Source: Clostridia bacterium
GTDB taxonomy: Bacteria > Bacillota > Clostridia > Oscillospirales > CAG-272
Direction: 5' to 3'
DNA: 41,144 bases
NCBI GenBank assembly: GCA_017613355.1
Contig: JAGAEA010000037.1
Span: 1-41,144 of the forward strand
The translations under genes were made by a program, and so were the position numbers. Numbering within the stretch: position 1 is the stretch's first letter; the number at the start of each line of letters is the position of its first letter. The notes beneath the pieces are model-generated. The model worked only from the letters and a program-made list of their open reading frames with translations. It was not told the DNA's origin and ran no database searches. Below are positions 12,896 through 28,606 of this stretch, one piece after another.

Positions 12896-13482
12896 CAAAG
12901 AACTCCCTTCGTGGACGGAATTTCATCCGCGGCGGCGGGGTCGATGGCGACAGCCGCACGGAGCGAACGCGCCACCGATTTGAACGCGCCTTCGAGGATG
13001 TGGTGCGAATTTGCCCCCGCAAGCTGACGGATGTGCAAAGTCACGTTTGCGTTGCGGGCAAACGCGAGCCAGAACTCCGCGCCCAACTCGGTATCGAAGG
13101 TTCCCACCTTTTCGGTGGGGAGCGTCATTTCATAGCCGAGGTACCCTCTGCCCGAAATATCGACCGCGGAAAGAACGAGCGCCTCGTCCATGGGCAGAAC
13201 GGTATTTGCAAAACGAGTAATTCCCTTTTTGTCGCCAAGTGCCGCGTCAAACGCCTTGCCCAGCGCGATCCCGATATCCTCGGCGGTGTGGTGATCGTCC
13301 ACATTGACGTCGCCCGCGCAGGTGATGTTCAGGTCAAACCGCCCATGACGGGCAAAAAGCGTGAGCATGTGATCAAGGAAGCCGCACCCGCTGTTGATTT
13401 CGGAAACTCCGCTTCCGTCGAGGTTCAACGACAGGCGAATGTCGGTTTCGTTGGTTTTGCGTGTCACATTTGCTGTTCTCAT
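12895..13482 (-). CDS. hisB: imidazoleglycerol-phosphate dehydratase HisB
   Basis: This 195-residue monofunctional IGP dehydratase has the two duplicated metal-binding motifs, DDHHTAEDIGIALG near residue 65 and NSHHILEGAFKSVARSL near 160. It also has the N-terminal GCGFLDHMLTLFARHG. No N-terminal histidinol-phosphatase domain is present, unlike the enterobacterial fusion, and no histidinol-phosphatase gene is visible in the operon. It overlaps hisC by four bases. Confidence 0.97.
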   Translation of the reverse strand: MRTANVTRKTNETDIRLSLNLDGSGVSEINSGCGFLDHMLTLFARHGRFDLNITCAGDVNVDDHHTAEDIGIALGKAFDAALGDKKGITRFANTVLPMDEALVLSAVDISGRGYLGYEMTLPTEKVGTFDTELGAEFWLAFARNANVTLHIRQLAGANSHHILEGAFKSVARSLRAAVAIDPAAADEIPSTKGVL

Positions 13483-14543
13483 TTGTTTTCCTCCAAAATC
13501 ATTTGAATTGCCGCGAGAAGCGCATTCACTTCATCGGCGCTGCCAACGGTAATGCGGTTATAATCTTTGAGAAGCGGCGTCTCGAAATGACGCACGAGAA
13601 TTCCCCGCTCCCGCAAGGCGAGATAAAGCGCCTTACCTCCGATTTTCGGGTGCTTCGCAAACAGGAAGTTTGCTTGCGAAGGTACCACTTCAAATCCGTA
13701 ATTTCGCAATGCGTGTGTGCAAAATTCGCGGTTTTTGATGATGATTTCGCAATTTTTCTTTGTCTGCGCCTCGTCCTCGATCGCGCCGATCCCCGCCGCC
13801 ATGGTCATACGGTTGACGTTATAGGGATTGGTGGAATTGCGGATGGCTTGCAGGTCGGCGATCAGCGGTGCCTGTGCAATGCCGAAGCCGAGCCGCGCGC
13901 CCGCCATGGAGCGCGATTTGGAAAAAGTCTGCGTGACGAGCAGGTTTTCATATCTTCGGATCAAAGGCACGCAGGTCTCCGCTCCGAAATCCACGTAAGC
14001 TTCGTCGATGACCACAACATCGTTCGGGTGCGCGTTCAAAATCCGCTCGATCTCCCGCACGGAAAGCGCGGTGCCCGTGGGCGCGTTCGGGTTTGCGAGG
14101 AACACGGTTCCTTTCTTTTGGCAAAGCCCGTCCACGTCCACCGAAAAATCCTTGTTCAGCGGGACTTCGGTAAACGGGATGCCGTGGAGATCGGCGAACA
14201 CGCGGTAAAACCCGTACGTGATATTCGGGAACACGGCGGGGCGGTCTTTCCCGCAGAACGCCATGAACGCGAAATTGAGAATTTCGTCCGAACCGTTCGT
14301 CGCCATCACTTCATCCGTGCCGACGCCGAGCAGGGCGGCAAAACTCTCGTTGAGTTTTTTCGCCGTCGGGTCGGAATAAAGCTGCAGCCGTTCGGCTTCC
14401 CGCTTTGCCGCCTCGATCGCGCGGGGTGACGGCGGGAAAGGTGATTCATTGGTATTGAGCTTGATGTAGGTACGCTCTCTCGGCTGTTCCCCGGGAACAT
14501 ACGGAACCAAATTTGCGTACCGTTCGTGCAAAAATCGGCTCAT
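13479..14543 (-). CDS. hisC: histidinol-phosphate aminotransferase HisC
   Basis: This 354-residue fold-type I PLP aminotransferase carries out the imidazole acetol phosphate to histidinol phosphate step. It shows the substrate-binding N-terminus KLNTNESPFPPSP, the cofactor Asp/Tyr segment VVIDEAYVDF, and the Schiff-base Lys in TQTFSKSRSMAGARLGF near 215. The start overlaps the hisD stop by four bases and is preceded by GGAGGAAG. Length and motifs are normal for the family. Confidence 0.96.
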   Translation of the reverse strand: MSRFLHERYANLVPYVPGEQPRERTYIKLNTNESPFPPSPRAIEAAKREAERLQLYSDPTAKKLNESFAALLGVGTDEVMATNGSDEILNFAFMAFCGKDRPAVFPNITYGFYRVFADLHGIPFTEVPLNKDFSVDVDGLCQKKGTVFLANPNAPTGTALSVREIERILNAHPNDVVVIDEAYVDFGAETCVPLIRRYENLLVTQTFSKSRSMAGARLGFGIAQAPLIADLQAIRNSTNPYNVNRMTMAAGIGAIEDEAQTKKNCEIIIKNREFCTHALRNYGFEVVPSQANFLFAKHPKIGGKALYLALRERGILVRHFETPLLKDYNRITVGSADEVNALLAAIQMILEENK

Positions 14544-15823
14544 TTACTTTCTTCCTCCGTGCGAATGACCGCGCTTTTGGCGTGCGCCGTCAATCCTTCG
14601 AGGCGCGCGAAACAGGCAACGTCGTCGGCGAGTTCCGCGAGCGCATCTTTCGTAAAATAAGTAAACTGCGTTTTCTTAACGAAATCGTCCACCGAGAGCG
14701 GACTTGAAAATTTCGCGGTGCCGCCCGTGGGGAGCGTGTGGTTGGGTCCCGCCATGTAGTCGCCCAACGCCTCGGGGCAATTCCGCCCCATGAAAACCGA
14801 CCCCGCGTGGCGGATGCTTCCGAGGTAGGCGAACGGATCGTCCACGCAAAGTTCCAAATGTTCGGGAGCGATCTCGTTGGCAATGTCGATGACGGTTTCG
14901 AGGTCTTTCGCAACAATGATTTTTCCGTTGTTATCGATCGACGCCCGCGCGATCTCGGCACGTTCGAGCTTCGGGATCTGTTCTTCGAGTTCCCGTTGCA
15001 CGGCGAGAGCCAAGTCCGGGGAGTCGGTAACCAGCACTGCCGACGCGAGCTTGTCATGCTCGGCTTGCGAGAGCAGATCGGCGGCGATATGGCGCGGGTC
15101 GCTCTTGCCGTCCGAAACGATGAGAATTTCGCTCGGTCCCGCGATCATGTCGATCGAGACCTCGCCGAACACCTGTTTTTTCGCTTCGGCGACGAACGCG
15201 TTTCCGGGTCCCACGATCTTATCCACTTTCGGGATTGTTTCGGTCCCGTACGCCAGCGCCGCGATCGCCTGTGCGCCGCCCACTTTGAAAATGCGGTCGA
15301 TGCCTGCCACCTGCGCCGCCGCGAGAATAGCGGGATTGACCTTGCCGTCCTTCCCCGGGGGCGTGACCATGACGACCTCGCCCACGCCCGCGATTTTTGC
15401 GGGGATGGAATCCATCAGCACGGTGGAAGGGTACGCCGCCGTGCCGCCCGGGACGTAAAGCCCAGCGCGATCGACGGGAGTGACTTTCTGCCCCATGACG
15501 ACGCCGTTTTCGTCTTTGATCTCGAATCCCTGCCGTACCTGCTTTTCATGGAAACGGCGGATGTTCGCGGCGGCACGCCGCAAAATTTCGAGGAAACGCG
15601 GTTCGACCTTTGCCACCGCCTCTTTGATCTCCTCGGGTGTAACCGCGAGGGACGTCAGGTTCGCTTTATCGAATTTCGCGGTATATGCGAGCAGGGCGCG
15701 GTCGCCGTTCCGCCGAACGTCGGCAATGATGTCGGCAACGATCGACGCCACATCGACCGACGGCACCACGCGAGCGAATATCTCGCTGTTTTTCACTTCT
15801 CCGTAACGTAAAATCTTAATCAT
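14540..15823 (-). CDS. hisD: histidinol dehydrogenase HisD
   Basis: This 427-residue zinc enzyme performs the last two NAD-dependent oxidations to histidine. Visible motifs are VGPGNAFVAEAKKQVFG, the zinc-ligand region LSQAEHDKLASAVL, and near the C-terminus GPNHTLPTGGTAKFSSPLS. The start at 15823 (MIKILRYGE) was chosen because it overlaps the hisG stop by four bases; the longer frame would add only a glycine-rich leader. Confidence 0.97.
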   Translation of the reverse strand: MIKILRYGEVKNSEIFARVVPSVDVASIVADIIADVRRNGDRALLAYTAKFDKANLTSLAVTPEEIKEAVAKVEPRFLEILRRAAANIRRFHEKQVRQGFEIKDENGVVMGQKVTPVDRAGLYVPGGTAAYPSTVLMDSIPAKIAGVGEVVMVTPPGKDGKVNPAILAAAQVAGIDRIFKVGGAQAIAALAYGTETIPKVDKIVGPGNAFVAEAKKQVFGEVSIDMIAGPSEILIVSDGKSDPRHIAADLLSQAEHDKLASAVLVTDSPDLALAVQRELEEQIPKLERAEIARASIDNNGKIIVAKDLETVIDIANEIAPEHLELCVDDPFAYLGSIRHAGSVFMGRNCPEALGDYMAGPNHTLPTGGTAKFSSPLSVDDFVKKTQFTYFTKDALAELADDVACFARLEGLTAHAKSAVIRTEEESK

Positions 15824-16473
15824 GCTTCCGCCCCCGCCTGTTTCTTTGCCACGCATTCGGCAAGTCGTTCGGTCAGCTCGCGGATCTGCGCATTCTTGAA
15901 TTGATAACTTGCTTTGTTCGCGATCAGCCGCGCGCTGATGGGCACGATGTTCTCCACCACTTCCAAGTGGTTTTCCCGCAAGGTCGTTCCCGTTTCCACA
16001 ATGTCCACGATCACGTCCGAAAGCCCGAGAATGGGCGCCAGCTCAATGGAACCGTTGAGGTGGATCATGTCGATCTCGCGACCCTGACCGCCATAATACG
16101 TTTTTGCGATATTCTGAAATTTCGTTGCCACGCGCAACGTCCGCGAAGGATCGTCGCGGAAGCCGACGGGCGCGGCGACCGCCATGCGGCAGTTACCCGT
16201 GCAGAGGTCGAGCAGTTCATAAACGTCGGGGGCATATTCAAGCAGAATATCCTTGCCCGCAACGCCGATGTCCGCCGCTCCGCGCTCGACATAGATGGTC
16301 ACGTCCGAAGGCTTGACCCAAAAATAGCGTACTCCCGCTGCCTCGTTCTCGAAAATGAGCTTGCGATTGTTCTCGCGAATGGACGGGCAATCGTAGCCGA
16401 CCGCCTCGAACATGGAGTAAACTTTTTCGCCGAGCCTTCCCTTCGGAAGCGCGATATTGATCAATTCTTTCAT
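15820..16473 (-). CDS. hisG: ATP phosphoribosyltransferase, short-form catalytic subunit HisG
   Basis: This 217-residue HisG catalyses the first committed step of histidine synthesis. It is the short form: ALPKGRLGEKVYSMF begins the protein, VERGAADIGVAGKDILLE follows, and the phosphate-binding region is DIVETGTTLRENHLEV. The C-terminal regulatory ACT-like domain of long HisG is absent. Short HisG is known to need HisZ, which is encoded 12 bases upstream. AAGGAGA precedes the start. Confidence 0.97.
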   Translation of the reverse strand: MKELINIALPKGRLGEKVYSMFEAVGYDCPSIRENNRKLIFENEAAGVRYFWVKPSDVTIYVERGAADIGVAGKDILLEYAPDVYELLDLCTGNCRMAVAAPVGFRDDPSRTLRVATKFQNIAKTYYGGQGREIDMIHLNGSIELAPILGLSDVIVDIVETGTTLRENHLEVVENIVPISARLIANKASYQFKNAQIRELTERLAECVAKKQAGAEA

Positions 16474-16485
16474 GTGGGTCTCCTT

Positions 16486-17562
16486 TCAAAGGCGGATCAG
16501 CTCTTGCCCGACCATGGACGCGGGCAGTTCGCGAACGGCGATTGCCCGTTTGCCCGCGCGGGTCAGCTTTTGCATGGTTCCGGCAACGTCGGAAAGCGCG
16601 GTGTTCTCGCCGTAGAGAACGACGGTGTCCACGTCGTAATCGTTCGCGGAAGGGGTCAGCCGTTCGATCCCGTCGAGGTAAACGGCAAATCCGATGGCGC
16701 CGGACGTTTTACCGAGCTTTTGCATGAGTTTGTCGTATTGCCCGCCAGAGAGAACGCGATCGGGAACGCCGTCCACATAGCCGTGGAACACGATACCGTT
16801 ATAGTAATTGCGGTCGCCGACCACCGAAAAATCCAGTCTTACGCATTCCATGGGCAGCACGTTCAGCACACGGCGCAACGCCGAAACGTCCGATTTCCAC
16901 GCTTCGTCGCCATAGAGAGACGCCAACAATTCCAACGTGGACTGTACCTCTCCCGTTCCCGAAAGGACGGCGAACAATTTTTCCGCGTGATCGACCGAAA
17001 CGCCGAACTCCGGCGAACGAAGTTTCAGCTCGCCGAGGTTTTTCTCCCCGATCATGCGGAAGAGTTCGGAATGGCTCTCCTCGGGGTAGCCTGCCCGACG
17101 GATGAGCTCGGCGAGAATGCCGAGGTGAGCAATGCCGAGGGCATGGCGCGGCGAAATTTCGGCAAGGCTCCGTTCCGCCAACGTCAGCGTTTCCGCAATG
17201 GCGTAGTCATCCACGTTGCCGATACATTCCAACCCGACCTGCGCGATCTCGCGGTAGGTGCGGCTTCCGCGGGCGGGGCGGTAAACGTTTTCATGGTAGT
17301 AAACTTTTCGGGTGCCGCTCTCGCCGTCCTTGGTGTTGCGGACGATGGAAAGAGTCACGTCGGGTTTGAGCGCCATGAGTTTGCCGTTGGTGTCGGTGAA
17401 CGTGATGATATTATCCGACACGAGGAAGCTCTTGTTGCGAACGTAAAAATCGTACTCTTCGAACTTGCTCATGCGGAACTGCGAATAGCCGTAGGAGCGG
17501 TAGAGCGAACGCAGGGCGAACGCCACGCGCTCCTCGGGTTTGAAAACATCCGTTTGATTCAT
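16486..17562 (-). CDS. hisZ: ATP phosphoribosyltransferase regulatory subunit HisZ
   Basis: This 358-residue protein resembles the catalytic core of histidyl-tRNA synthetase. It has YGYSQFRMSKFEEYDFYVRN near the N-terminus, LKPDVTLSIVRN (motif 2-like) and GGQYDKLMQKLGKTSGAIGF (motif 3-like). It lacks an anticodon-binding domain. Such HisZ proteins pair with short HisG, encoded next, to form the feedback-inhibited complex. The start overlaps the yerC stop by one base (TAATG). Confidence 0.95.
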   Translation of the reverse strand: MNQTDVFKPEERVAFALRSLYRSYGYSQFRMSKFEEYDFYVRNKSFLVSDNIITFTDTNGKLMALKPDVTLSIVRNTKDGESGTRKVYYHENVYRPARGSRTYREIAQVGLECIGNVDDYAIAETLTLAERSLAEISPRHALGIAHLGILAELIRRAGYPEESHSELFRMIGEKNLGELKLRSPEFGVSVDHAEKLFAVLSGTGEVQSTLELLASLYGDEAWKSDVSALRRVLNVLPMECVRLDFSVVGDRNYYNGIVFHGYVDGVPDRVLSGGQYDKLMQKLGKTSGAIGFAVYLDGIERLTPSANDYDVDTVVLYGENTALSDVAGTMQKLTRAGKRAIAVRELPASMVGQELIRL

Positions 17563-17852
17563 TATGGTTTCTCCTCTCTTCGATCAAGAACGGTGCGGTA
17601 GCCGCGGCTTCCGTAATTCAGGCATTTGTTGACACGGCTGATGGTTGCCGTGCTTGCGCCCGTTTCGCGCGAGACGTCCATATAGTTCTTGCCCGCGTCG
17701 AGCAGAACGGCGACCGAATAACGCTGGGTCAGATCCTGCAATTCCCGAATGGTGCAAATGTCGTCGAGGAACGCCTCGCATTCGTCCACCGTTTGCAGGG
17801 AGAGTATGGCGCGGCAAAGGGCTTCCCGATCCGCGTGTTTGCTCTTCTCCAT
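17562..17852 (-). CDS. yerC: YerC/YecD family TrpR-like DNA-binding regulator
   Basis: This 96-residue all-helical protein matches the YerC family related to the Trp repressor. It has ELQDLTQRYSVAVLLDAGKN followed by a helix-turn-helix segment SRETGASTATISRVNKCLNY. Members often precede histidine genes in Clostridia. Here it is the first gene of the his operon, joined to hisZ by TAATG. A striking dyad over its own promoter (17896-17935) makes autoregulation of yerC-his the simplest reading. The effector, if any, is not known. AGAGGAG precedes the start. Confidence 0.9.
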   Translation of the reverse strand: MEKSKHADREALCRAILSLQTVDECEAFLDDICTIRELQDLTQRYSVAVLLDAGKNYMDVSRETGASTATISRVNKCLNYGSRGYRTVLDRREEKP

Positions 17853-17892
17853 ATCTGTTCTCCTCTCTGTTCTTCCATGAAATGTAATACTT

Positions 17893-17936
17893 GCGCTTTA
17901 TCACTTTATCATTTTAGCACAGTAAAGCGATAAAGT
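17893..17936 (-). promoter_or_regulatory. dyad operator over the yerC-his promoter
   Basis: On the plus strand CTTTATCACTTTA (17896-17908) and TAAAGCGATAAAG (17923-17935) form a 13-base inverted repeat with one mismatch and a 14-base centre. Each arm is itself a tandem of CTTTA half-sites. One arm covers the -35 and spacer and the other the region just past the -10. YerC is the obvious candidate ligand, by inference. Confidence 0.6.
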
Positions 17937-17939
17937 CAA
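17911..17939 (-). promoter_or_regulatory. sigma-A promoter of the his operon
   Basis: TTGACT (17934-17939, minus strand) and TAAAAT (17911-17916) are spaced by exactly 17 bases, about 60 bases upstream of the yerC start. Both boxes lie within or between the arms of the dyad operator. Confidence 0.8.
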
Positions 17940-18002
17940 GTGGTTTTGAAAACTTTTTTATAAAACTTTTTATGTTTTCTCGATGGAAACGATCGGGCAA
18001 CG

Positions 18003-18042
18003 AAAAAGAGCTTTTCGGTATTTGCGCCGCAAAGCTCTTTTT
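18003..18042 (-). terminator. intrinsic terminator after the arg-car operon
   Basis: A 12-base stem, AAAAAGAGCTTT with AAAGCTCTTTTT (18003-18014 and 18031-18042), has a 16-base loop and a T-rich tail. It lies 19 bases past the stop of the CarB-DapF gene. Confidence 0.75.
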
Positions 18043-18061
18043 GTGTTTGGTTTTGGTTTTC

Positions 18062-21000
18062 TCAATATTCAAATTCGCCTTCGTAAACGAGCACGGCGGG
18101 ACCCGTGAGCGTCAAGGTGCCGTCCTCTGCGTTGTTGACGATGAGATCTCCTCCCGTCAACTTGACCCGAATATCGGTTCCTTTTTCGCAAAGTCCGTTC
18201 TCGCAGGCGGCGACCACGGCGGCGCAAGCCCCCGTTCCGCAAGCGAGCGTTTCTCCGTTTCCGCGTTCCCACGTCCGCATCCGCAGGGTGGTTTGATCCA
18301 CCGCTCGGACAAACTCGGTGTTCACCCGCTCGGGGAACAGCTCGGAATGCTCGAATTTCGGTCCCACGGTTGCGAGGTCCAGCCCGTCGATCGCGTCGCA
18401 GAACACCACGCAATGCGGGTTTCCGACCGAAACGCAGGTGACGTTCCAGTCGGCGTCCGCAATGCGGACGGGTTCGTTGACCATTTGCGGCAGCTCGGTT
18501 TTCACGGGGATCGCCTTCGCGTCCATGATCGCTTTGCCCATATCCACACTGACCGTTCCGACCTTTCCGTCCCGCAGGAAGAGCCGCAGACGATGCACGC
18601 CGCTCGGCGTTTCCACGGTGAGCGTATCCCGACGGACGATGCCTTTATCATAGACATACTTCCCGACGCACCGGATGTTGTTCCCCGCCATTTTTCCTTC
18701 GCTTCCGTCGCGGTTGAAAGAACGCATTTTCACGTCGGCAACGGTCGAAGGCTCCATGAGCACGATGCCGTCCGCTCCGATGCCGTAATGCGGCGCGCAA
18801 AGGCTGACGCAAAGCGACTCGGGACAAGTGATCTCCCCGTGAAAGTTCTCCACGAAAATATAATCGTTCCCGCAGGACTGCATTTTGACAAACGGAATTT
18901 TACGGCGGCTATCCCGCATCCGGTTGATGTCCACAAGTTCGGTATTTTCCTTGGTAAACCGGCTTTCGATGATCCCGGCAAGCGCGCCCGCCGTGTCAAG
19001 AGACGTCAGGCAAGGAATGCCGAGCTGCATCGCGCGGCGGTGGATCAGGTTATAGTCTCCCACCGTGGCGTCATGGATCGCTCCCGTATAAATAATATAG
19101 TTGATCTTTCCGCTTTCGATCAGAGCGGTTACGGACGCCGCACCGTTCTTGACGTCGGTCACGGGAATTCCCAACTTGGCAATGGCTTTTGCCGTTCCCG
19201 TGGTGGCATAGAGATCGATTCCGAGGTCGTAGAACCGTTTTCCAACGGAAAGGATCTCTTCATAGTCGGATTCCGCAACGCTGACGAGCACGCCCGCCCG
19301 ATGCTTTCCAACTGCCGACGGCACCGAAAATCCCGCCGCCGTCAACCCCTTGAAGAGTGCTTCGGCAACCGTTTTCCCGATACCGAGCACCTCTCCCGTG
19401 GACTTCATTTCGGGTCCCAGAATGGAATTTGCGTCGCTCAACTTTTCAAAGGAGAACACGGGGACTTTCACGGCGCAATACGGCGGCGTGCGGTAAAGTC
19501 CCGTTCCGTAGCCGAGAGACTTCAACGGCTCGCCGAGCATCACGCGCGAAGCGAGATCCACCATGGGAACGCCCGTGACCTTGCTGATATACGGCACCGT
19601 CCGCGACGCGCGCGGATTGACCTCGATCACATAAAGCTCGCCTTCGTAGATCAGATATTGAATGTTGACAAGCCCCTGCGTTCCGAGAGCCAGCGCGAGC
19701 TTTTCGGAACAGTCGCAAATCTTTTCCAGCGAACGGTCGTCGAGGTTGTAGGGCGGATAGACGGCAATGGAGTCCCCGCTATGCACGCCCGCGCGTTCGA
19801 TGTGCTCCATGATCCCCGGGATCAGCACGTCGGTACCGTCCGAGATCACGTCCACTTCAAGTTCCACTCCCGGCATATAGCGGTCGATCAGCACGGGATT
19901 GTCGATCCCGCCCGCGAGAATTTTCTTCATGTATGCCTCGGTCTGCTCGCGGGTCCTCGAAATCATCATGTTCTGCCCGCCGATGACGTAGGAGGGGCGC
20001 AGCAAAACGGGATAGCCGAGCTGCTCCGCGGCGGCGATCGCTTCCTCCATGGAAGAAACGCCCATCCCCTTCGGACGGCGAATGTCGAAACGTTCGAGCA
20101 GTTCGTCAAAGCGCGCGCGATCCTCGGCAACGTCGATGCTTTCCGCCGACGTTCCCAAGATCCGAACGCCCGCTCGGTCGAGAAATCCCGTGAGCTTGAT
20201 GGCGGTCTGCCCGCCGAAAGCAACCACCACACCGATCGGGTTCTCCACGCGGATAATGTTCATCACATCCTCGGGTGTGAGCGGCTCGAAATAAAGGCGG
20301 TCGGCGGTGTCGTAGTCGGTGGAAACGGTTTCGGGGTTGTTGTTGACAATAACCACGTCATAGCCCATTTCCCGCAGCGTCCAAACGCAATGCACCGAAC
20401 TGTAATCGAATTCGATCCCCTGCCCGATGCGAATGGGTCCCGATCCGAGCACGACCACCACGGGTTTTCCACTCCTCGGATGCTGCCGCGCTTCGCAAAC
20501 GCCGCTCGGCACCGAATAGAAATAGGGGGTTTCCGCGTCGAACTCCGCGCCGCAGGTATCCACCATTTTATAGGAGAAGGTTCCGTCGGGCAAATAGGTC
20601 GCTCCCGTCAGGCGGCGAATGGCGGCGTCGGGATACCCGAGGCGCTTCGCTTTGCGGTAATCTTTCTCGGAAATCTGCCCTTTTTCGCATACACGCGCTT
20701 CAAATTCGGCAAGTCCGCGCAGTTTCGTCAGGAACCATTCGTCGATCATGGTCACCGCGTGGATCTCCTCGACCGTGACCCCCGCTTTGAGCGCCTCGAA
20801 TACGGTGAAAATGCGGCGGTCGTTCTGCTCGGCAAGGCGTTCCCGCACGGGGCGACCGTCAAGCGGTGCCGCGTTGAGCGTGTCAAGCGAGATTTCCGCA
20901 CCCCGAACGGCTTTGAGCAAAGCCGCCTCGAAGCTCTGTCCGATCGCCATAACCTCGCCCGTCGCCTTCATTTGCGTTCCGAGCGCACGGCTCGACCCCG

Positions 21001-22096
21001 CAAACTTATCGAACGGCCATTTCGGGAATTTGACCACCACGTAGTCGAGCGTCGGCTCGAAGCAGGCGCAGGTTTTGCCCGTGATGTCGTTTTTGATTTC
21101 GTCGAGCGTATAGCCGAGCGCGATCTTCGCGGTAATTTTGGCAATGGGATAACCCGTTGCCTTGGAAGCCAACGCCGAGGAACGCGAAACGCGCGGGTTG
21201 ACTTCGATCACGGCATACTCAAAACTCTCGGGATTGAGCGCGAACTGACAGTTGCAACCGCCGACGATCCCAAGCTCCGAGATCATGCGGAGCGATGCGC
21301 TCCGCAACATTTGATATTCTTTATCCGCGAGCGTCAGAGCGGGCGCGACAACGATCGAATCGCCCGTGTGAACGCCAACGGGGTCGAAATTCTCCATGGA
21401 GCAAACGGCAATGACGTTCCCCGCGCTGTCGCGCATGGTCTCGAATTCGATCTCCTTCCACCCCGCAATGCACTTTTCGATCAGCACCTGCGTGATGGGG
21501 GAAAGGTCCAACCCCGTGGCGGCAATGGTGCGCAGTTCCGCCTCGTTCGCGGCAATTCCGCCGCCGCTTCCGCCGAGCGTGTAGGCAGGGCGGACGATGA
21601 CGGGATAGCCAATGTCATCCGCGGCTTTGACGGCTTCCTCCACCGTGACCGCGATCTCGGAAGGCACAACGGGCTCCCCGATGGATTTCATCATGTCGCG
21701 GAAGCGTTCGCGATCCTCCGCCCGCTCGATCGCGTCAATGTCCGAACCGAGCAAACGAACGCCGTATTTTTCCAACACGCCCCGACGCGAAAGCTGCATG
21801 GCGATCGTCAGTCCCGTTTGCCCGCCGAGCCCCGCGAGAAGTCCGTCGGGACGTTCCTTTTCGATAATGCGGGTGACCGTTTCGGCGTCAAGCGGTTCGA
21901 GATAGATCTCGTCGGCAAGGTGCTGATCGGTCATAATGGTTGCGGGGTTGGAATTGACCAACACCGTGTTGATCCCTTCCGCCCGAAGCACACGGCACGC
22001 CTGCGCGCCCGCATAGTCGAATTCCGCCGCCTGCCCGATGACGATGGGACCCGAACCGATGACCAACACTTTTCGGATGTTCTTATCCTTCGGCAT
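18062..22096 (-). CDS. carB: carbamoyl-phosphate synthase large subunit fused to a diaminopimelate epimerase domain
   Basis: This single 1,344-codon frame encodes two enzymes. Residues 1 to about 1050 are a complete CarB. They comprise the first ATP-grasp half (VLVIGSGPIVIGQAAEFDYA; PVGVHTGDSIVVAPA), an oligomerisation region, the second ATP-grasp half (VLGSGPIRIGQGIEFDYSSV; NPRASRTVPYISK) and a C-terminal MGS-like allosteric domain (GIDLYATTGTAKAIAKLGI). A short basic linker (MRDSRR) leads into residues 1066-1344, a full-length DapF: KMQSCGNDYIFVEN, HYGIGADGIVLM, FNRDGSEGKMAGNNIRC and ERGNGETLACGTGACAA. No stop or good internal Shine-Dalgarno separates them. CarB makes carbamoyl phosphate for arginine and pyrimidines; DapF makes meso-DAP for lysine and the cell wall. 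The DapF part has Ala (residue 1137) where the first catalytic Cys normally stands; the second (C1286) is present. carA overlaps the start by 14 bases. Confidence 0.93.
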   Translation of the reverse strand: MPKDKNIRKVLVIGSGPIVIGQAAEFDYAGAQACRVLRAEGINTVLVNSNPATIMTDQHLADEIYLEPLDAETVTRIIEKERPDGLLAGLGGQTGLTIAMQLSRRGVLEKYGVRLLGSDIDAIERAEDRERFRDMMKSIGEPVVPSEIAVTVEEAVKAADDIGYPVIVRPAYTLGGSGGGIAANEAELRTIAATGLDLSPITQVLIEKCIAGWKEIEFETMRDSAGNVIAVCSMENFDPVGVHTGDSIVVAPALTLADKEYQMLRSASLRMISELGIVGGCNCQFALNPESFEYAVIEVNPRVSRSSALASKATGYPIAKITAKIALGYTLDEIKNDITGKTCACFEPTLDYVVVKFPKWPFDKFAGSSRALGTQMKATGEVMAIGQSFEAALLKAVRGAEISLDTLNAAPLDGRPVRERLAEQNDRRIFTVFEALKAGVTVEEIHAVTMIDEWFLTKLRGLAEFEARVCEKGQISEKDYRKAKRLGYPDAAIRRLTGATYLPDGTFSYKMVDTCGAEFDAETPYFYSVPSGVCEARQHPRSGKPVVVVLGSGPIRIGQGIEFDYSSVHCVWTLREMGYDVVIVNNNPETVSTDYDTADRLYFEPLTPEDVMNIIRVENPIGVVVAFGGQTAIKLTGFLDRAGVRILGTSAESIDVAEDRARFDELLERFDIRRPKGMGVSSMEEAIAAAEQLGYPVLLRPSYVIGGQNMMISRTREQTEAYMKKILAGGIDNPVLIDRYMPGVELEVDVISDGTDVLIPGIMEHIERAGVHSGDSIAVYPPYNLDDRSLEKICDCSEKLALALGTQGLVNIQYLIYEGELYVIEVNPRASRTVPYISKVTGVPMVDLASRVMLGEPLKSLGYGTGLYRTPPYCAVKVPVFSFEKLSDANSILGPEMKSTGEVLGIGKTVAEALFKGLTAAGFSVPSAVGKHRAGVLVSVAESDYEEILSVGKRFYDLGIDLYATTGTAKAIAKLGIPVTDVKNGAASVTALIESGKINYIIYTGAIHDATVGDYNLIHRRAMQLGIPCLTSLDTAGALAGIIESRFTKENTELVDINRMRDSRRKIPFVKMQSCGNDYIFVENFHGEITCPESLCVSLCAPHYGIGADGIVLMEPSTVADVKMRSFNRDGSEGKMAGNNIRCVGKYVYDKGIVRRDTLTVETPSGVHRLRLFLRDGKVGTVSVDMGKAIMDAKAIPVKTELPQMVNEPVRIADADWNVTCVSVGNPHCVVFCDAIDGLDLATVGPKFEHSELFPERVNTEFVRAVDQTTLRMRTWERGNGETLACGTGACAAVVAACENGLCEKGTDIRVKLTGGDLIVNNAEDGTLTLTGPAVLVYEGEFEY

Positions 22097-23159
22097 GGTT
22101 TTCCCCTCCCATCATGGCAATAAAACGGTCAAACAAAAATTCGGTGTCATGCGGTCCGCCGCAAGCCTCGGGGTGGAACTGCACCGTGAAGCACCGCTTC
22201 CCGGGGTATTCCATTCCCTCGCAGCTGCCGTCGTTGGCATTGACGTACAGCTCCCGACCGACGCCTTGAAGGGTGCTTGAAACCACGGCGTATCCATGGT
22301 TCTGACTGGTGATATAGGTTCTCGCGCCACCCACTTCGCGCACGGGCTGGTTGCCGCCGCGATGACCGAACGGGAGCTTGACGGTCTTGCCGCCCATGGC
22401 AAGCGCGGCAAGCTGATGCCCGAGACAAATGCCGAACACGGGGACTTTCCCGATCAGCTTTTTCAGCTCGGCGATCGCCGCCGTATTCTCGGTGGGGTCG
22501 CCGGGTCCGTTGGAAAGCATGACGCCGTCCGGCGAAAGAGCCAGAATTTCCTCCGCGGTTGTATTCTCGGGAACGCGGATGACCCGACAGCCGCGGCGTG
22601 TCAGATTGCGGACGATGTTTTCTTTCGCGCCATAATCGACCAGTACCACGGTGTGGGTGAATTTTCCCTCGGGTTTGTAAATCGTGTTTTTCGCACAGCT
22701 GACCGACGGCACCACACCCGTCACGCGGTATGCCCTGACCGCTTCGAGATCGACCTTGGGGGTGGATGAGATCACGGCGTTCATCACGCCGTGCTTTCGG
22801 ATCAGGCGCGTGATCTCGCGTGTGTCCACTCCGGCGATCCCGGGGATGTGACGCGCGCAAAGAAACTCGTTCAGCGTCATCCGTGCGCGGAAATTGGACG
22901 GTTCGGAGCAACACTCGCGCACCACGTACCCGCGCGCGGCGGTCTTTCCCTCGAAATCCTCGGGGGCAAGCCCGTAGTTGCCGATGAGCGGGAAAGTCTG
23001 CAAAACGATCTGACCCGCGTAACTCGGGTCGGTCAGCGTTTCGGTGTAGCCGACCATGCCCGTGGTGAACACGAGTTCGCCGACCGCGTTTCCCGCGTCG
23101 CCGATCCGTTCGCCCTCAAAGGTCGTTCCGTCCTGTAAGATCAAATATGCTTTTTCCAT
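22083..23159 (-). CDS. carA: carbamoyl-phosphate synthase small (glutaminase) subunit
   Basis: This 358-residue protein hydrolyses glutamine for CarB. The N-terminal small domain begins YLILQDGTTFEGERIG and contains GNYGLAPEDFEGK. The class I glutaminase domain has VFGICLGHQLAALAMGGK with the nucleophile Cys, then KLPFGHRGGNQPV and VQFHPEACGGPHDTEFLFD with the His-Glu pair. CCGAGGAGA precedes the start at 23159. The end overlaps the carB start by 14 bases, and argF lies 27 bases upstream. Confidence 0.97.
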   Translation of the reverse strand: MEKAYLILQDGTTFEGERIGDAGNAVGELVFTTGMVGYTETLTDPSYAGQIVLQTFPLIGNYGLAPEDFEGKTAARGYVVRECCSEPSNFRARMTLNEFLCARHIPGIAGVDTREITRLIRKHGVMNAVISSTPKVDLEAVRAYRVTGVVPSVSCAKNTIYKPEGKFTHTVVLVDYGAKENIVRNLTRRGCRVIRVPENTTAEEILALSPDGVMLSNGPGDPTENTAAIAELKKLIGKVPVFGICLGHQLAALAMGGKTVKLPFGHRGGNQPVREVGGARTYITSQNHGYAVVSSTLQGVGRELYVNANDGSCEGMEYPGKRCFTVQFHPEACGGPHDTEFLFDRFIAMMGGENHAEG

Positions 23160-23186: not shown

Positions 23187-24173
23187 TCAGGCAAGTGTTG
23201 CCGCCATGACGGCTTTGATGGTGTGCATCCGGTTTTCCGCTTCGTCGAACACGATGGAAGCCTCGCCCTCGAAAACGGCGTCGGTCACTTCCATACAGTC
23301 GATGCCGAATTTTTCATGGATCTGCCGCCCGACCTCGGTTCCGAGATCGTGGAAAGCGGGCAGGCAGTGCATGAAGCGGCATTGGGGTCCCGCCGCCGCC
23401 ATCAGTTGCTCGGTCACGCGGTAGGGCAGAAGCGCCTCGATGCGCTCTTTCCAAACGCTGTCGGGTTCTCCCATGGAGACCCAAACGTCGGTATAGATCA
23501 CGTCCGCGCCCGCAACGGCTTTGAGCGGATCGGTCTCAAACACGATCTCCGCGCCCGTTTCCGCCGCGATCGCATGGCATTTTGCCGCCAATGCGTCATT
23601 CGGGAAATACGCTTTCGGCGCACACGCAACGAACCGCATTCCCATTTTTGCGCAACCGATCATGAGCGAGTTGCCCATGTTATAGCGCGCGTCGCCCATA
23701 TAGACCAGTTTTTTCCCTTTCAGCGATCCGAAATGCTCGCAGATGGTGAGAAAATCGGCAAGAATTTGCGTGGGGTGATATTCGTTGGTCAATCCGTTCC
23801 AAACGGGTACCCCCGCATACTTTGCCAAAGTCTCCACGATCTCTTGCCCGTAGCCGCGGTATTCGATGCCGTCGAACATCCGACCGAGCACACGCGCGGT
23901 GTCGGCGATGCTTTCCTTTTTCCCAATCTGCGAGCTTTTCGGGTCAAGATACACGGGATGCATTCCGAGATCCGACGCGGCAATTTCAAAGGAGCAACGG
24001 GTACGGGTACTCGTTTTCTCGAAGATGAGCGCAACGTTCTTTCCTTCGCAGAGACGGTGCGGGATTCCCTGTTTCTTTTGCGCCTTCAATTCGGCGGCAA
24101 GATCCAGAAGTCCCTCGATTTCTTTCGGCGTGAAATCAAGCAATGTTAAAAAATGACGATTTTTCAAGTTCAT
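23187..24173 (-). CDS. argF: ornithine carbamoyltransferase
   Basis: This 328-residue enzyme joins carbamoyl phosphate and ornithine to give citrulline. Diagnostic motifs are [13 protein letters not shown]-like [13 protein letters not shown] near residue 55 (carbamoyl phosphate binding), FDGIEYRGY, the [11 protein letters not shown] segment near 130, VWVSMGEP near 235 and [10 protein letters not shown] with the ornithine-side Cys near 270. The start at 24173 ([20 protein letters not shown]) is typical of the family; the longer frame was rejected. It lies between argD and carA in the operon, so the maker and user of carbamoyl phosphate are encoded together. Confidence 0.97.
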
Positions 24174-24211
24174 ATCTTTCCGATCCTTTTTCTTTTTTGT
24201 GCAAGGCCTTT

Positions 24212-25405
24212 TCAATCCAACAATCCGTCTTTCGGAAGTCCTTCGGCGCACACGTCCCGCAAAATTTCCAGCGCGCGCACGAGCTGTTCCTCGGGAATGT
24301 TGAGCGGGGGCAGGAGTCTGACTTTATCCTTTGCGGAGAGGCAAAGTACACCGCGTTCGCGGCACGCCGCGAGAACCTCTCCCGCCGGTTTGACGGTTTT
24401 GACCCCGATCATGAGTCCCATGCCCGTGACCGACTCGATCCCTTCCGCACCGGAGAGCATCCCGAAGGCAAGACGGCTCTTGCGGCGAACCTCGGCGAGC
24501 AAATCCTCGTCGATCCGCGAAAGGATACTCACAGCGCCCGCGCAGGCAACGGGATTGCCGCCGAACGTGGAACCGTGGTCGCCCGCACCGAGAACGTTTT
24601 TCACCTTTTCGCCGAGCAGCGTGGCTCCGATGGGAAGTCCGCCGCCCAGGCCTTTCGCCGTGGTGACGATGTCGGGCGTTACGTCAAAGTTCATATAAGA
24701 GTAGAGCTTTCCTGTTCTGCCGTTACCCGTTTGCACTTCGTCCACGATCAGCAACGCGCCGTGTTCGCGGCAGAGCGCGGCGACCTCGCGGACATAGGTC
24801 TTTTCCAAAGGATTGACGCCGCCCTCGCCCTGCACGCATTCGATCATCACGGCGGCGGGTTTAACGCTCTCCACCATGGTTTTCATCGCACCGATGTCAT
24901 TTGCGGGGACGTGGACAAACCCCGGAGTGAGCGGTTGGAAAAGCGCGTGGAATTTTGCCTGCCCCGTTGCGGCGAGCGTAGTCAGCGTTCGACCGTGAAA
25001 ACTGTTTTCGAGCGTGACGATCGTATTCCGCTCCGCTCCGTAGGTGTCGGCGGCATATTTGCGCGCAACTTTGACGGCGCATTCGTTTGCTTCGGCGCCC
25101 GAATTGGAGAAAAATACTTTCTTCATGCCCGTTTTTCCGCAGAGCATTTCGGCGAGCTTTCCGCAGGGCTCCGTGTAATACAGATTGGAAGCGTGTTGAA
25201 CCTGCCCGAGCTGTGCGGTGACTGCCGCGACCCATTCGTCGTCGCAGAAGCCGAAGCTCGTTACGCCGATGCCCGAACCGAGGTCGATATATTCTTTGCC
25301 GTTGCTGTCGACCGCCACCGACCCTTTTCCCGAAACGATCTCAACGGGGAAACGCGCGTAGGTCGCGGCAACGTAAGTTTGATCTCTTTCCTGAATGTTA
25401 CTCAT
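24212..25405 (-). CDS. argD: acetylornithine aminotransferase
   Basis: This 397-residue class III PLP aminotransferase converts N-acetylglutamate semialdehyde to N-acetylornithine. It contains [34 protein letters not shown], the cofactor segment [19 protein letters not shown], and the Schiff-base Lys in [14 protein letters not shown]. ArgD can also serve as DapC in lysine synthesis in some bacteria. That is relevant here because the same operon ends in a DapF domain, but nothing in the sequence proves it. The start at 25405 was preferred over an ATG three codons earlier because of AAGGA about ten bases upstream. Confidence 0.96.
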
Positions 25406-25468
25406 GAAAACCAAATCCTTTTTCGGGGCAAAACGCCCGTTTTTTGATATACGTACCGTAAATTTCCG

Positions 25469-26332
25469 TCAATTCCCCGTGACCATCGTGCCCGCGCCTT
25501 CGTCGGTCAGAAGCTCCATGAGGATCGAATGCGGGACGCGACCGTCCATGATGATCACGCACCCGACGCCGCGGTGGATCGCTTCCACACAGCAGTTGAC
25601 TTTCGGGATCATTCCACCCGAAATAATGCCGTCGCGGAAGAGCTGTTCGGTCTCCTTGATGGAGAGTTCGGGGATCAACGTTGCGGGGTCGTTGCGATCG
25701 CGCAGGATGCCCGCAATGTCGGTCATCATAATCAACCGCTCGGCACCGAGCGCACCCGCGATATGCGCGGCGGCGGTGTCGCCGTTGATGTTGTAGGTAC
25801 AGCCGTCGCGGTCACATCCCAGCGTGGAGATCACGGGGATATATCCCCGTTCGAGCAGATCGGTCACGGGAGCGATATTGATATTCGTGATCTCCCCCAC
25901 GTATCCGAGCCGTTCGTCCTTGATCTTCGCCTCGATCAAATGCCCGTCCATGCCCGAAAGTCCGATGGCGCGGCCGCCTTTCATTTCCAACAGGTTGACC
26001 AGCGTTTTGTTGACTTTTCCCGCGAGCACCATTTGCGCAATGTCCACGGTTTCTTTGTCGGTCACGCGCAACCCGTCCACAAACTCGGACTTTTTGCCGA
26101 GTTTATCCATCAGATCGTTGATCTCGGGTCCGCCGCCGTGTACCAGCACGACCTTGACCCCGATCAGGTGCAAAAGAACGATATCCTCCATGACCTGTTG
26201 TTTGAGTTGTTCGTTGACCATCGCGTTGCCGCCGTACTTGACGACCACGATCTTGCCGTTATATTTCTTGATGTTCGGAAGCGCTTGGGTCAATACCTCG
26301 GCACGCTCCGCATTGGAAAACGCATTCTGCAT
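25469..26332 (-). CDS. argB: N-acetylglutamate kinase
   Basis: This 287-residue amino acid kinase phosphorylates N-acetylglutamate. Motifs are VVKYGGNAM near residue 35, VVLVHGGGPEIND near 62, and the nucleotide-binding segment INGDTAAAHIAGALGAERLI near 180. The N-terminal extension (about 25 residues, MQNAFSNAERAEVLTQALP) is like the helix that mediates hexamer assembly and arginine feedback in arginine-sensitive NAGKs, so feedback control is plausible. AAAGGAAA precedes the start. Confidence 0.97.
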   Translation of the reverse strand: MQNAFSNAERAEVLTQALPNIKKYNGKIVVVKYGGNAMVNEQLKQQVMEDIVLLHLIGVKVVLVHGGGPEINDLMDKLGKKSEFVDGLRVTDKETVDIAQMVLAGKVNKTLVNLLEMKGGRAIGLSGMDGHLIEAKIKDERLGYVGEITNINIAPVTDLLERGYIPVISTLGCDRDGCTYNINGDTAAAHIAGALGAERLIMMTDIAGILRDRNDPATLIPELSIKETEQLFRDGIISGGMIPKVNCCVEAIHRGVGCVIIMDGRVPHSILMELLTDEGAGTMVTGN

Positions 26333-26347
26333 ATCCCGTTTCCTTTC

Positions 26348-27565
26348 TCATGTACGGTAATCGCCGTTGATCTTCACGTAGTCGTAGGTCAGGTCACAGC
26401 CCCAAGCCGTGGACGACACGTTTCCCGCGTTCAGCCCGACCTCGATCACGATCTCCTTTTCGGAAAGCACCTTTTTGGCGATCTCTTCCGAAAAATCGAC
26501 GCCCGCGCCGTTCTTGCAAACGGCAACCGTTCCCGCCGCGCTCGTGAACGCAACGTCGATGCGGTTGACGTCCACCTCCGCTCCGCTGTATCCGATAGCG
26601 CAAAGCACGCGACCCCAGTTGGCGTCCGCGCCGAACATGGCGGCTTTGAGCAAGCTGGAACAAATGACGCTCTTCGCAACGGTTTTTGCCACGCCGAGGT
26701 CGGCGGCGCCCGTCACCTTGCATTCCAAAAGTTTGGTCGCGCCCTCGCCGTCGCCCGCGATCATGCGGCAAAGCCCGACCGTGACGGTGTTGAGCGCACG
26801 CATGAACGCGGCAAAATCGTCGCCGTCGGTCGTGATCTCGGCGTTGCCCGCCATCCCGTTGGCAAGGATCGAAACCATGTCGTTGGTGGAAGTGTCGCCG
26901 TCAATACTGACCATGTTGAAGGTGTCGGCAACGTCGGTTTTCAGCGCCTTTGCAAGCATTTCGGAAGAGATCGCCGCGTCGGTCGTGAGAAAGACGAGCA
27001 TGGTTGCCATGTTGGGGTGGATCATGCCGCTTCCCTTCGCCATGCCGCCCAAGCGGCAGACCTTGCCGCCCGCCGTGAATTCCACGGCAACTTCCTTGCG
27101 GATCGTGTCGGTCGTCATAATCCCCTCGGCGGCAGTGACTCCGCCCTCGGGGGAAAGCGCCTTGACGAGAAGCGGGATGCCCGCTTGAATGGGTGCGAGA
27201 TCCAACGGCTGACCGATGACTCCCGTGGACGCGACGATCACGTCCTTCGGAGAAATGCCGAGCGCGTCTCCCACGAGACCGCACATCGCTTCGGCAATCT
27301 CGATGCCGTTTGCATTGCAGGTATTGGCGTTTCCGCTGTTGCAGATGACCGCTTGCGCGCGACCGTTTGCAAGGTTGGATTTCGTTACGATCAGGGGCGC
27401 GCCCTTGACGAGGTTGGTCGTGTAAACGGCGGCAGCCGAAGCGGGAACTTCGCTGTAAATCATCGAGAGATCGCGCTTGGTCTTATTTTTGCGAATGCCG
27501 CAATGAACGCCTGCGGCGGAAAAACCCTTTGCGGCGCAAACGCCGCCTTCCATCAAATGTATCAT
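26348..27565 (-). CDS. argJ: bifunctional glutamate N-acetyltransferase / ornithine acetyltransferase
   Basis: This 405-residue ArgJ belongs to the Ntn-hydrolase-like family that self-cleaves. The conserved site is in GSGMIHPNMATMLVF, with the new N-terminal Thr at residue 188. Other family segments are CNSGNANTCN near 75, STGVIGQPLDL near 113 and MTTDT at 150-154. It recycles acetyl groups between acetylornithine and glutamate; whether it can also use acetyl-CoA cannot be read from sequence. No separate argA is visible, which fits ArgJ providing the cycle. AAAGG lies nine bases before the start. Confidence 0.96.
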   Translation of the reverse strand: MIHLMEGGVCAAKGFSAAGVHCGIRKNKTKRDLSMIYSEVPASAAAVYTTNLVKGAPLIVTKSNLANGRAQAVICNSGNANTCNANGIEIAEAMCGLVGDALGISPKDVIVASTGVIGQPLDLAPIQAGIPLLVKALSPEGGVTAAEGIMTTDTIRKEVAVEFTAGGKVCRLGGMAKGSGMIHPNMATMLVFLTTDAAISSEMLAKALKTDVADTFNMVSIDGDTSTNDMVSILANGMAGNAEITTDGDDFAAFMRALNTVTVGLCRMIAGDGEGATKLLECKVTGAADLGVAKTVAKSVICSSLLKAAMFGADANWGRVLCAIGYSGAEVDVNRIDVAFTSAAGTVAVCKNGAGVDFSEEIAKKVLSEKEIVIEVGLNAGNVSSTAWGCDLTYDYVKINGDYRT

Positions 27566-27596
27566 TTCTGAAAACCTTTCTTTTTCGGTATTTTTT

Positions 27597-28520
27597 TCAA
27601 TTGAGAACCAATCCCGTTGCCTCGGGCAGACCCAACACCAAATTCATGTTCTGAATGGCGGCGCCGGACGCGCCTTTGCCGAGGTTGTCAAATCGGGAAA
27701 CCAGCAAAACGCGCTCTTCGTTGCCGAAAACGGCGACCTGCATATCGTCCCGCCCCGCAAACGCTCCGGCGGAAAGAAACCCGTTTTCGTCGGCGGTTTC
27801 GGCAAAACGGATGAGACCCTTTCCGTAAATCTCCCGATAAACCGAACGAGCCGCGTCCGCGCCGCCGCGGAGCATCCGTCCGTCGATCGGAACGGTCACT
27901 TCCATCCCCGCGTAGTACGGAGCCACGATCGGGCAGAAGCACGGCGGCGAGACGAGAGACCCGTAAACCCGCATTTCGGGAAGATGTTTATGCGCTTGGG
28001 AAAGTCCGTACTGGCGCGGCGCTTCAAGGAGCGGATCGCGGTCGGGCACTTCGTAATCGGCGATCATTTTTTTGCCGCCGCCCGAATACCCCGTTAAGGA
28101 AAAGCAGGAAAGAAACGCATCGGGGGAAAGAACGCCCGCTCGAACCAACGGGGCAACCAAAGCGATAAAACCGCTCGCGTGGCACCCGGGGTTGGCGATT
28201 CGCTTCGAGGAACAAATTTTTTCCCGCTGTCCGTCGAGTTCGGGAAATCCGTAAACCCAGCCGTCCGCCGTCCGATGTGCCGTTGAGGTGTCGATGACGA
28301 CGGTGTTCGGATTTTGCACAAGTCCCACCGCTTCCACCGCCGCCGCGTCGGGAAGGCAAAGGAACACCACGTCGGCGCGATTCATGCATTCGGCGCGGGC
28401 AGCAGGGTCTTTTCGCCGATCGTCGGGAAGGGTCAATACCGTCAGATCGCTCCGTGCGGCAAGCCGCTCATGGATCCGCAGACCGGTCGTTCCCGCGGCG
28501 CCGTCAATAAAAATCTTCAT
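27597..28520 (-). CDS. argC: N-acetyl-gamma-glutamyl-phosphate reductase (short class)
   Basis: This 307-residue NADP-dependent reductase has an N-terminal Rossmann motif KIFIDGAAGTTGLRIHERL and the catalytic Cys in RIANPGCHASGFIALVAPL near residue 115. It also contains SLTGYSGGGKKMI and LPEMRVYGSL. The short length and the IFIDGAAGTTG start are those of the second ArgC class rather than the longer Bacillus-type enzyme. Two adjacent ATGs occur at 28523 and 28520; the second has the better spacing from GGAG. It is the first gene of the arg-car operon, after a consensus promoter. Confidence 0.95.
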   Translation of the reverse strand: MKIFIDGAAGTTGLRIHERLAARSDLTVLTLPDDRRKDPAARAECMNRADVVFLCLPDAAAVEAVGLVQNPNTVVIDTSTAHRTADGWVYGFPELDGQREKICSSKRIANPGCHASGFIALVAPLVRAGVLSPDAFLSCFSLTGYSGGGKKMIADYEVPDRDPLLEAPRQYGLSQAHKHLPEMRVYGSLVSPPCFCPIVAPYYAGMEVTVPIDGRMLRGGADAARSVYREIYGKGLIRFAETADENGFLSAGAFAGRDDMQVAVFGNEERVLLVSRFDNLGKGASGAAIQNMNLVLGLPEATGLVLN

Positions 28521-28606
28521 CATAAAACTCCGATTCCGATCGGCGAACGCTCGTTTTCCGCTTTTCGGAAAGCCCTCGCGACGCCGTTGTATTTTATCTT
28601 TTCTAT

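Follow-up and report, generated by a model that had tools for sequence, protein, structure and literature searches.

A clostridial CarB-DapF fusion whose epimerase-like half has repeatedly lost a catalytic cysteine and most likely became regulatory

The window analysed here is a stretch of 41,144 nucleotides (positions 1 to 41,144, forward strand) of contig JAGAEA010000037.1 (assembly GCA_017613355.1) from a member of the Clostridia (Oscillospirales, CAG-272). On its minus strand, at 18062..22096, lies the fusion gene carB~dapF, in which CarB, the large subunit of carbamoyl phosphate synthase (CPSase), is joined to a domain resembling the diaminopimelate (DAP) epimerase DapF. The gene is one open frame of 1344 aa with no internal stop and matches the profiles of both proteins, in agreement with the first-pass annotation of this DNA, which had claimed an uninterrupted CarB and DapF frame. 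The CarB part (residues 1-1047, 18956..22096) was delimited by Pfam CPSase_L_D1/D2/D3 and MGS, by TIGR01369 and by alignment with the E. coli CarB chain 1bxr_A, which pairs with fusion residues 1-1036. It comprises two ATP-grasp halves, an oligomerisation domain and an MGS domain at residues 947-1031, and scores 1400 bits against TIGR01369 over residues 2-1040 (cut-off 1027). The full domain set, the profile score and the adjoining carA all mark it as a CPSase large subunit, and carbamoyl phosphate synthesis is predicted for it from family membership. A linker of about 20 residues (1048-1066, 18899..18955), defined as the gap between the CarB and DapF profile matches, separates it from the DapF-like domain (residues 1067-1344, 18065..18898), and the length of this junction is nearly constant across fused relatives. 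The DapF-like domain was recognised by TIGR00652 and by the two halves of PF01678; the match spans residues 1068-1342, reaches 278 bits against TIGR00652 for the domain alone (cut-off 114.65), and 2otn_A is the closest solved structure. The predicted product is thus one chain consisting of a complete CarB, the linker and a DapF-fold domain.

An epimerase-like domain of full length had been described in the first-pass annotation. The fold is indeed full length, but the first of the two catalytic cysteines of DapF, Cys73 in the E. coli enzyme, is replaced by Ala1137 (GCG, 18686-18688, minus strand, placed by motif), and the domain reads MAGN where DapF has MCGN. The second, Cys217, is kept as Cys1286 (18239..18241, minus strand, also placed by motif), and one of the two catalytic positions is therefore without its cysteine. 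The identity of this pair is taken from PMC4227774 and PMC5296763, excerpts of which underlie every statement cited to them here. The DAP contacts checked in the window protein, as described in PMC5296763, are present (Asn11, 64, 75, 157 and 190, Glu208, Arg209 and Thr219). When either cysteine of the C. glutamicum enzyme (CgDapF) was replaced (C83A or C221A), the protein was almost inactive (PMC5296763). A stand-alone dapF elsewhere in the genome, which the first-pass annotation had proposed looking for, was found: the source genome (1.37 Mb, 49 contigs, 76% complete) encodes a separate DapF with both cysteines on contig C14, and a diaminopimelate dehydrogenase (Ddh) on contig C6. The fused CarB was the sole CarB found in this 76% complete assembly. 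Because of Ala1137 and the presence of a separate two-cysteine DapF and Ddh, the fused domain appears to be neither the sole nor the likely DAP epimerase of the source organism, and the idea of a working epimerase is not supported. We regard it as very probable that the window's domain does not act as an ordinary DAP epimerase.

No separate DapF start is evident at the junction, and the gene family as a whole gives little sign of an internal start. A start codon is found near the beginning of the DapF part in 39/155 fused loci, compared with 33/35 separate dapF genes, and a start codon together with a Shine-Dalgarno-like sequence in just 8/155 compared with 27/35 (the 155 fused loci include repeat entries of the same gene). 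These counts bear out the earlier observation that the junction lacks a good internal Shine-Dalgarno site.

The fusion is widespread. Searches for other proteins with this architecture, as suggested in the first-pass annotation, returned many relatives in three sets: at least 62 of the 196 genomes of the source's own family; at least 18 of the 397 other genomes of a draw from the phylum (398 with the source genome), across 8 other families; and 79 of the best 80 loci from a scan of genome contigs, the last locus being cut by a contig end. At least three genomes occur in more than one set (L067 = G189, L091 = G182, L108 = G181), and tests on the sets were not pooled. Carriers from the contig scan include Ruminococcus sp. 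FC2018 and Gemmiger sp. An120, neither of which is labelled as a metagenome-assembled genome, and two carriers (G376 and G401) are single-contig genomes. A frameshift at the junction, raised earlier as a way in which the fusion might be spurious, is excluded by so many fused relatives. The other case raised against it, separate carB and dapF genes in related genomes, was partly encountered: the two genes are adjacent in some family members, but the CarB there belongs to a distant branch (arginine operons were not searched systematically). These family members have the order carA-carB-dapF, with a separate two-cysteine dapF at most about 230 bases after the distant-branch CarB (L193-L197, L210, L211, L217 and L220). 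Two genomes, G621 and G638, each gave two long-frame (fused) DapF matches, and 88 of the 196 family genomes had no DapF among the matches listed, some of them having Ddh (G003, G007, G010 and G133).

Loss of the first cysteine is the rule among fused domains and was never seen among separate ones. Cys73 is replaced by Ala, Gly or Ser in 53 of the 63 fused domains of the family, being kept in 10, and is lost in 121/150 fused domains of the set used for tree building, which was freed beforehand of 5 duplicates and of 10 domains that were truncated or unparsed. Both cysteines are kept in all 39 separate DapFs fetched (one being part of a Mur ligase fusion), including all 32 from family genomes that carry the fusion, and in 13/13 of a further set of separate DapFs, the source genome's copy being counted in both. 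One group of fused domains (L038-L040, L111 and L143) has lost both cysteines, to Ser and Ala. On the DapF tree, 150 fused and 8 separate sequences form a clade with support 0.685, and parsimony places about six losses of Cys73 on it, two of them on nodes with support of 0.54 and 0.48. It also places two regains of the cysteine (L042 and L174) and five returns to separate genes, on weak nodes. A single carB-dapF fusion event is favoured by the grouping of these sequences; the CarB tree, with 160 fused and 10 unfused sequences, holds too few of the latter to decide the matter.

Genomes in which the fused domain has lost Cys73 tend to have another route to meso-DAP. Separate DapFs were found in 31/53 Cys-lost but only 1/10 intact family genomes (Fisher p 0.006), and in 48/61 Cys-lost versus 1/16 intact genomes of the contig set (Fisher p 1.4e-7); both tests ignore relatedness. 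The contig set was composed of all 16 intact genomes and 11 Cys-lost genomes of our choosing, to which 50 more Cys-lost genomes were added; L067, L099 and L125, among the 53 remaining loci, were left out of this count. For the 39 later-added genomes with a second DapF match, 13 of the matches are just 32-37% identical, with their cysteines unread, and the one in G650 is a piece at a contig edge. Ddh makes meso-DAP without DapF. It was detected in 18/22 family and 7/13 contig-set genomes that are Cys-lost and have no separate DapF; in the contig set the Ddh search covered 29 of 77 genomes, and two of the family matches (G050 and G063) are weak. On the other hand, the intact fused domain was the only DapF found in 25/31 genomes, yet in just 1/5 of those from the phylum draw, and relatives with both cysteines are likely to be bifunctional.

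Gene context also differs between the two classes (80 loci, tallied without L067, L091, L098, L108 and L125). Arginine genes lie upstream of 27/38 Cys-lost but 0/10 intact fusions among loci with at least 3 kb of upstream sequence, while a DapL-like gene lies downstream of 0/47 Cys-lost and 6/13 intact fusions among loci with 2.5 kb of downstream sequence. Two of the six DapL-like genes were called as LL-DAP aminotransferase by TIGR03542 and the rest by similarity to those two. At L226 in G621, a locus outside this tally, only a few bases lie between a Cys-lost carB~dapF and a stand-alone two-cysteine dapF, behind which comes a gene for a class I/II aminotransferase; the arrangement looks as if the epimerase had been supplied anew.

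The Cys-lost DapF domain is under purifying selection, and is less constrained than the intact one. Over 92 Cys-lost pairs the median ratio of nonsynonymous to synonymous substitution rates (dN/dS) is 0.107 for the DapF domain (range 0.03-0.33) and 0.067 for the adjoining CarB part; for 12 pairs of intact fusions the medians are 0.056 and 0.041, respectively. Among the 121 Cys-lost domains, nine of the ten non-cysteine DAP contacts are each conserved in 96% or more and the tenth, Asn11, in 72%; all ten are present in 29/29 intact domains. This retention supports ligand binding by the Cys-lost domains, without proving it.

The remaining features of the locus place the gene at the end of an arginine operon. 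Upstream and on the same minus strand are carA (22083..23159), which shares 14 bases with the beginning of carB~dapF and was recognised from its translation and position rather than by a family search, and argF, argD, argB, argJ and argC (23187..28523). The operon order is argC-argJ-argB-argD-argF-carA-carB~dapF, with argC, argJ, argB and argF identified by NCBIfam and argD by sequence only. The first-pass annotation had invoked argD as a metabolic link to DAP; this is unneeded, argD belonging to the arginine operon commonly found ahead of the fusion. It had also reported a terminator after the DapF end, and a terminator-like hairpin with a U-run does follow the stop codon (17995-18062, minus strand), with a folding energy of -18.3 kcal/mol (z -4.06 against shuffles, 0/200 of which were equally good). 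A consensus terminator scan of 17800-19200 listed none, probably because the loop exceeds the length the scan allows. Further downstream (13479-17852, minus strand) are a YerC/YecD TrpR-like regulator, a hisZ-like gene (TIGR00443, below cut-off), and hisG, hisD and hisC by sequence alone, so that histidine genes stand beside the arginine genes. Rfam gave an FMN riboswitch (RF00050, 40551-40710, minus strand) and a SAM riboswitch (RF00162, 38862-38948, minus strand) and nothing else; both are more than 10 kb from the upstream end of the operon, and riboswitch control of arg-carB~dapF was discarded as a candidate.

Taken together, the fusion is real and widespread, and the conversion of an enzyme into a regulator is its most likely explanation. 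Specifically, our preferred reading, to which we assign a probability of about 0.5, is that CarB-DapF was anciently bifunctional and that its epimerase half repeatedly became a non-catalytic, DAP-binding regulatory domain. More tentatively, such a DAP sensor derived from a dead epimerase may control carbamoyl phosphate synthesis, and with it arginine and pyrimidines, in many Clostridia. The role beside the MGS domain proposed in the first-pass annotation, regulatory or tethering, fits the loss of the cysteine, the retained pocket and the conserved fusion. In an ancestral clostridium, dapF would have joined carB to give a bifunctional enzyme, and some lineages would still have no DapF besides it. 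In other lineages, mostly those with an alternative source of meso-DAP, the epimerase half would have lost its catalytic cysteine several times and yet been retained. The domain would bind DAP or a close analogue and close as DapF does, the two lobes of the C. glutamicum enzyme being drawn together by DAP (PMC5296763). The closed state might then be relayed to the adjoining MGS allosteric domain, and carbamoyl phosphate supply would respond, positively or negatively, to DAP, aspartate-family or cell-wall status. UMP and ornithine act at the MGS domain of E. coli CPSase, and a catalytically dead DapF that binds DAP directly behind this domain would be in a good position to signal DAP to the synthase. 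Pyrimidine and arginine synthesis draw on carbamoyl phosphate together with aspartate, from which DAP is also made, and the UTP and DAP routes converge in peptidoglycan precursors.

Several observations weigh against this reading. The phylum draw shows no association between cysteine loss and a second DapF, which was found in 4/5 intact and 13/13 Cys-lost genomes (p 0.28). Neither another DapF nor Ddh was detected in ten Cys-lost genomes (4/53 in the family and 6/61 in the contig set), and Ddh is common in intact genomes too (10/16 in the contig set and 4/10 in the family); therefore, Ddh alone does not lead to cysteine loss. Arginine genes are missing upstream of 11/38 Cys-lost loci. Asn11 is changed in 28% of Cys-lost domains, just 83/121 have all ten contacts, and the contacts other than Asn11 show no more than a marginal excess in retention over other positions conserved in DapF (p 0.056). 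The second cysteine, for which a pure sensor would have no need, is kept in 94% of the 121. Finally, the Cys-lost DapF domain evolves about twice as fast as the intact one and faster than its own CarB, and some relaxation of constraint is possible. These dN/dS medians, together with the counts from the phylum draw, temper the argument for a sensor but leave the odds given here as they are.

The kept Cys217 also bears on an alternative that we consider unlikely, namely that Ala at 73 with Cys at 217 gives a changed enzyme performing one-base chemistry, such as elimination or one-sided proton exchange, with DAP or some other amino acid as its substrate. Its retention in 94% of Cys-lost domains, within a retained pocket, is what such an enzyme would call for; trans-3-hydroxyproline dehydratase, of the same superfamily, reportedly functions with one cysteine replaced, and its profile gave a weak match below the cut-off (E 0.008). 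The domains of L038-L040, L111 and L143, however, are still constrained with Ser and Ala in place of both cysteines. A structural or tethering role, in which the DapF dimer interface sets the oligomeric state of CPSase or recruits the separate DapF, is likewise improbable, even though DapF is a dimer (PMC5296763, PMC4227774) and 31/53 Cys-lost family genomes have a separate DapF. In 18/53 there is Ddh and no separate DapF was found that could be recruited, which weakens partnering with a separate DapF as a general role, and the ligand contacts, mostly retained, also speak against tethering.

An active bifunctional enzyme was considered for the window gene because of the strong DapF profile score and the presence of the other active-site residues checked. 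It was rejected as the principal explanation owing to Ala1137: the equivalent C83A change makes CgDapF almost inactive (PMC5296763), the source genome has a separate two-cysteine DapF and Ddh, and activity of this domain is accordingly quite improbable. Still less probable is a decaying passenger, a domain without a role and on its way out; it could account for the lost catalytic residue and for a dN/dS roughly double the value for intact fusions, but the values lie far below 1 (0.03-0.33 over the 92 pairs) and the frames stay open across deep divergence. An assembly or frameshift artefact, to which a source assembly of 49 contigs and 76% completeness might be prone, is ruled out by conservation of the fusion among relatives in many separate assemblies (the single-contig G376 and G401, Ruminococcus sp. 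FC2018 and Gemmiger sp. An120 among them), and we give it a negligible chance.

If the preferred reading of a DAP-binding regulatory domain is true, it would add a new link from the level of a cell-wall and lysine precursor to CPSase, wiring it to nitrogen and nucleotide metabolism. The family would also offer a natural series, from separate to fused and intact to fused and Cys-less, in which an enzyme was turned non-catalytic several times, and the fused relatives with two cysteines would preserve the bifunctional ancestor, making the path from enzyme to sensor traceable. The label 'DAP epimerase' would be wrong for most fused domains found here, with consequences for pathway prediction, including that for gut bacteria. 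No report of CarB joined to a Cys-less DapF was found among the papers listed in searches of the open-access literature.

Compared with known CarB proteins (TIGR01369), the window protein has all CarB domains, an adjoining carA and a place in an arginine operon, but it carries an additional C-terminal DapF-like domain directly after MGS. With DapF (TIGR00652, EC 5.1.1.7) it shares the profile fold over the full length, the DAP contacts and the second catalytic cysteine; unlike DapF, it has Ala for the first cysteine, is joined to the CarB C-terminus, and comes from a genome with a separate two-cysteine DapF. A DapF sharing its chain with another enzyme is also seen in a 786-aa fusion to a MurE-like Mur ligase (L227:571-2931, G035), in which, in contrast, DapF is N-terminal and has both cysteines; meso-DAP would be the substrate of a MurE-like ligase. 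A further parallel is E. coli DapF and RppH. There, replacing both cysteines of DapF (C73A/C217A) leaves its binding to RppH and its stimulation of that enzyme in place (PMC4227774), and therefore the DapF fold can regulate without catalysis. That DapF is a separate protein with a different partner and is naturally an active enzyme, whereas the window domain is part of CarB; what the two would have in common is a DapF fold that acts on another enzyme without its catalytic cysteines.

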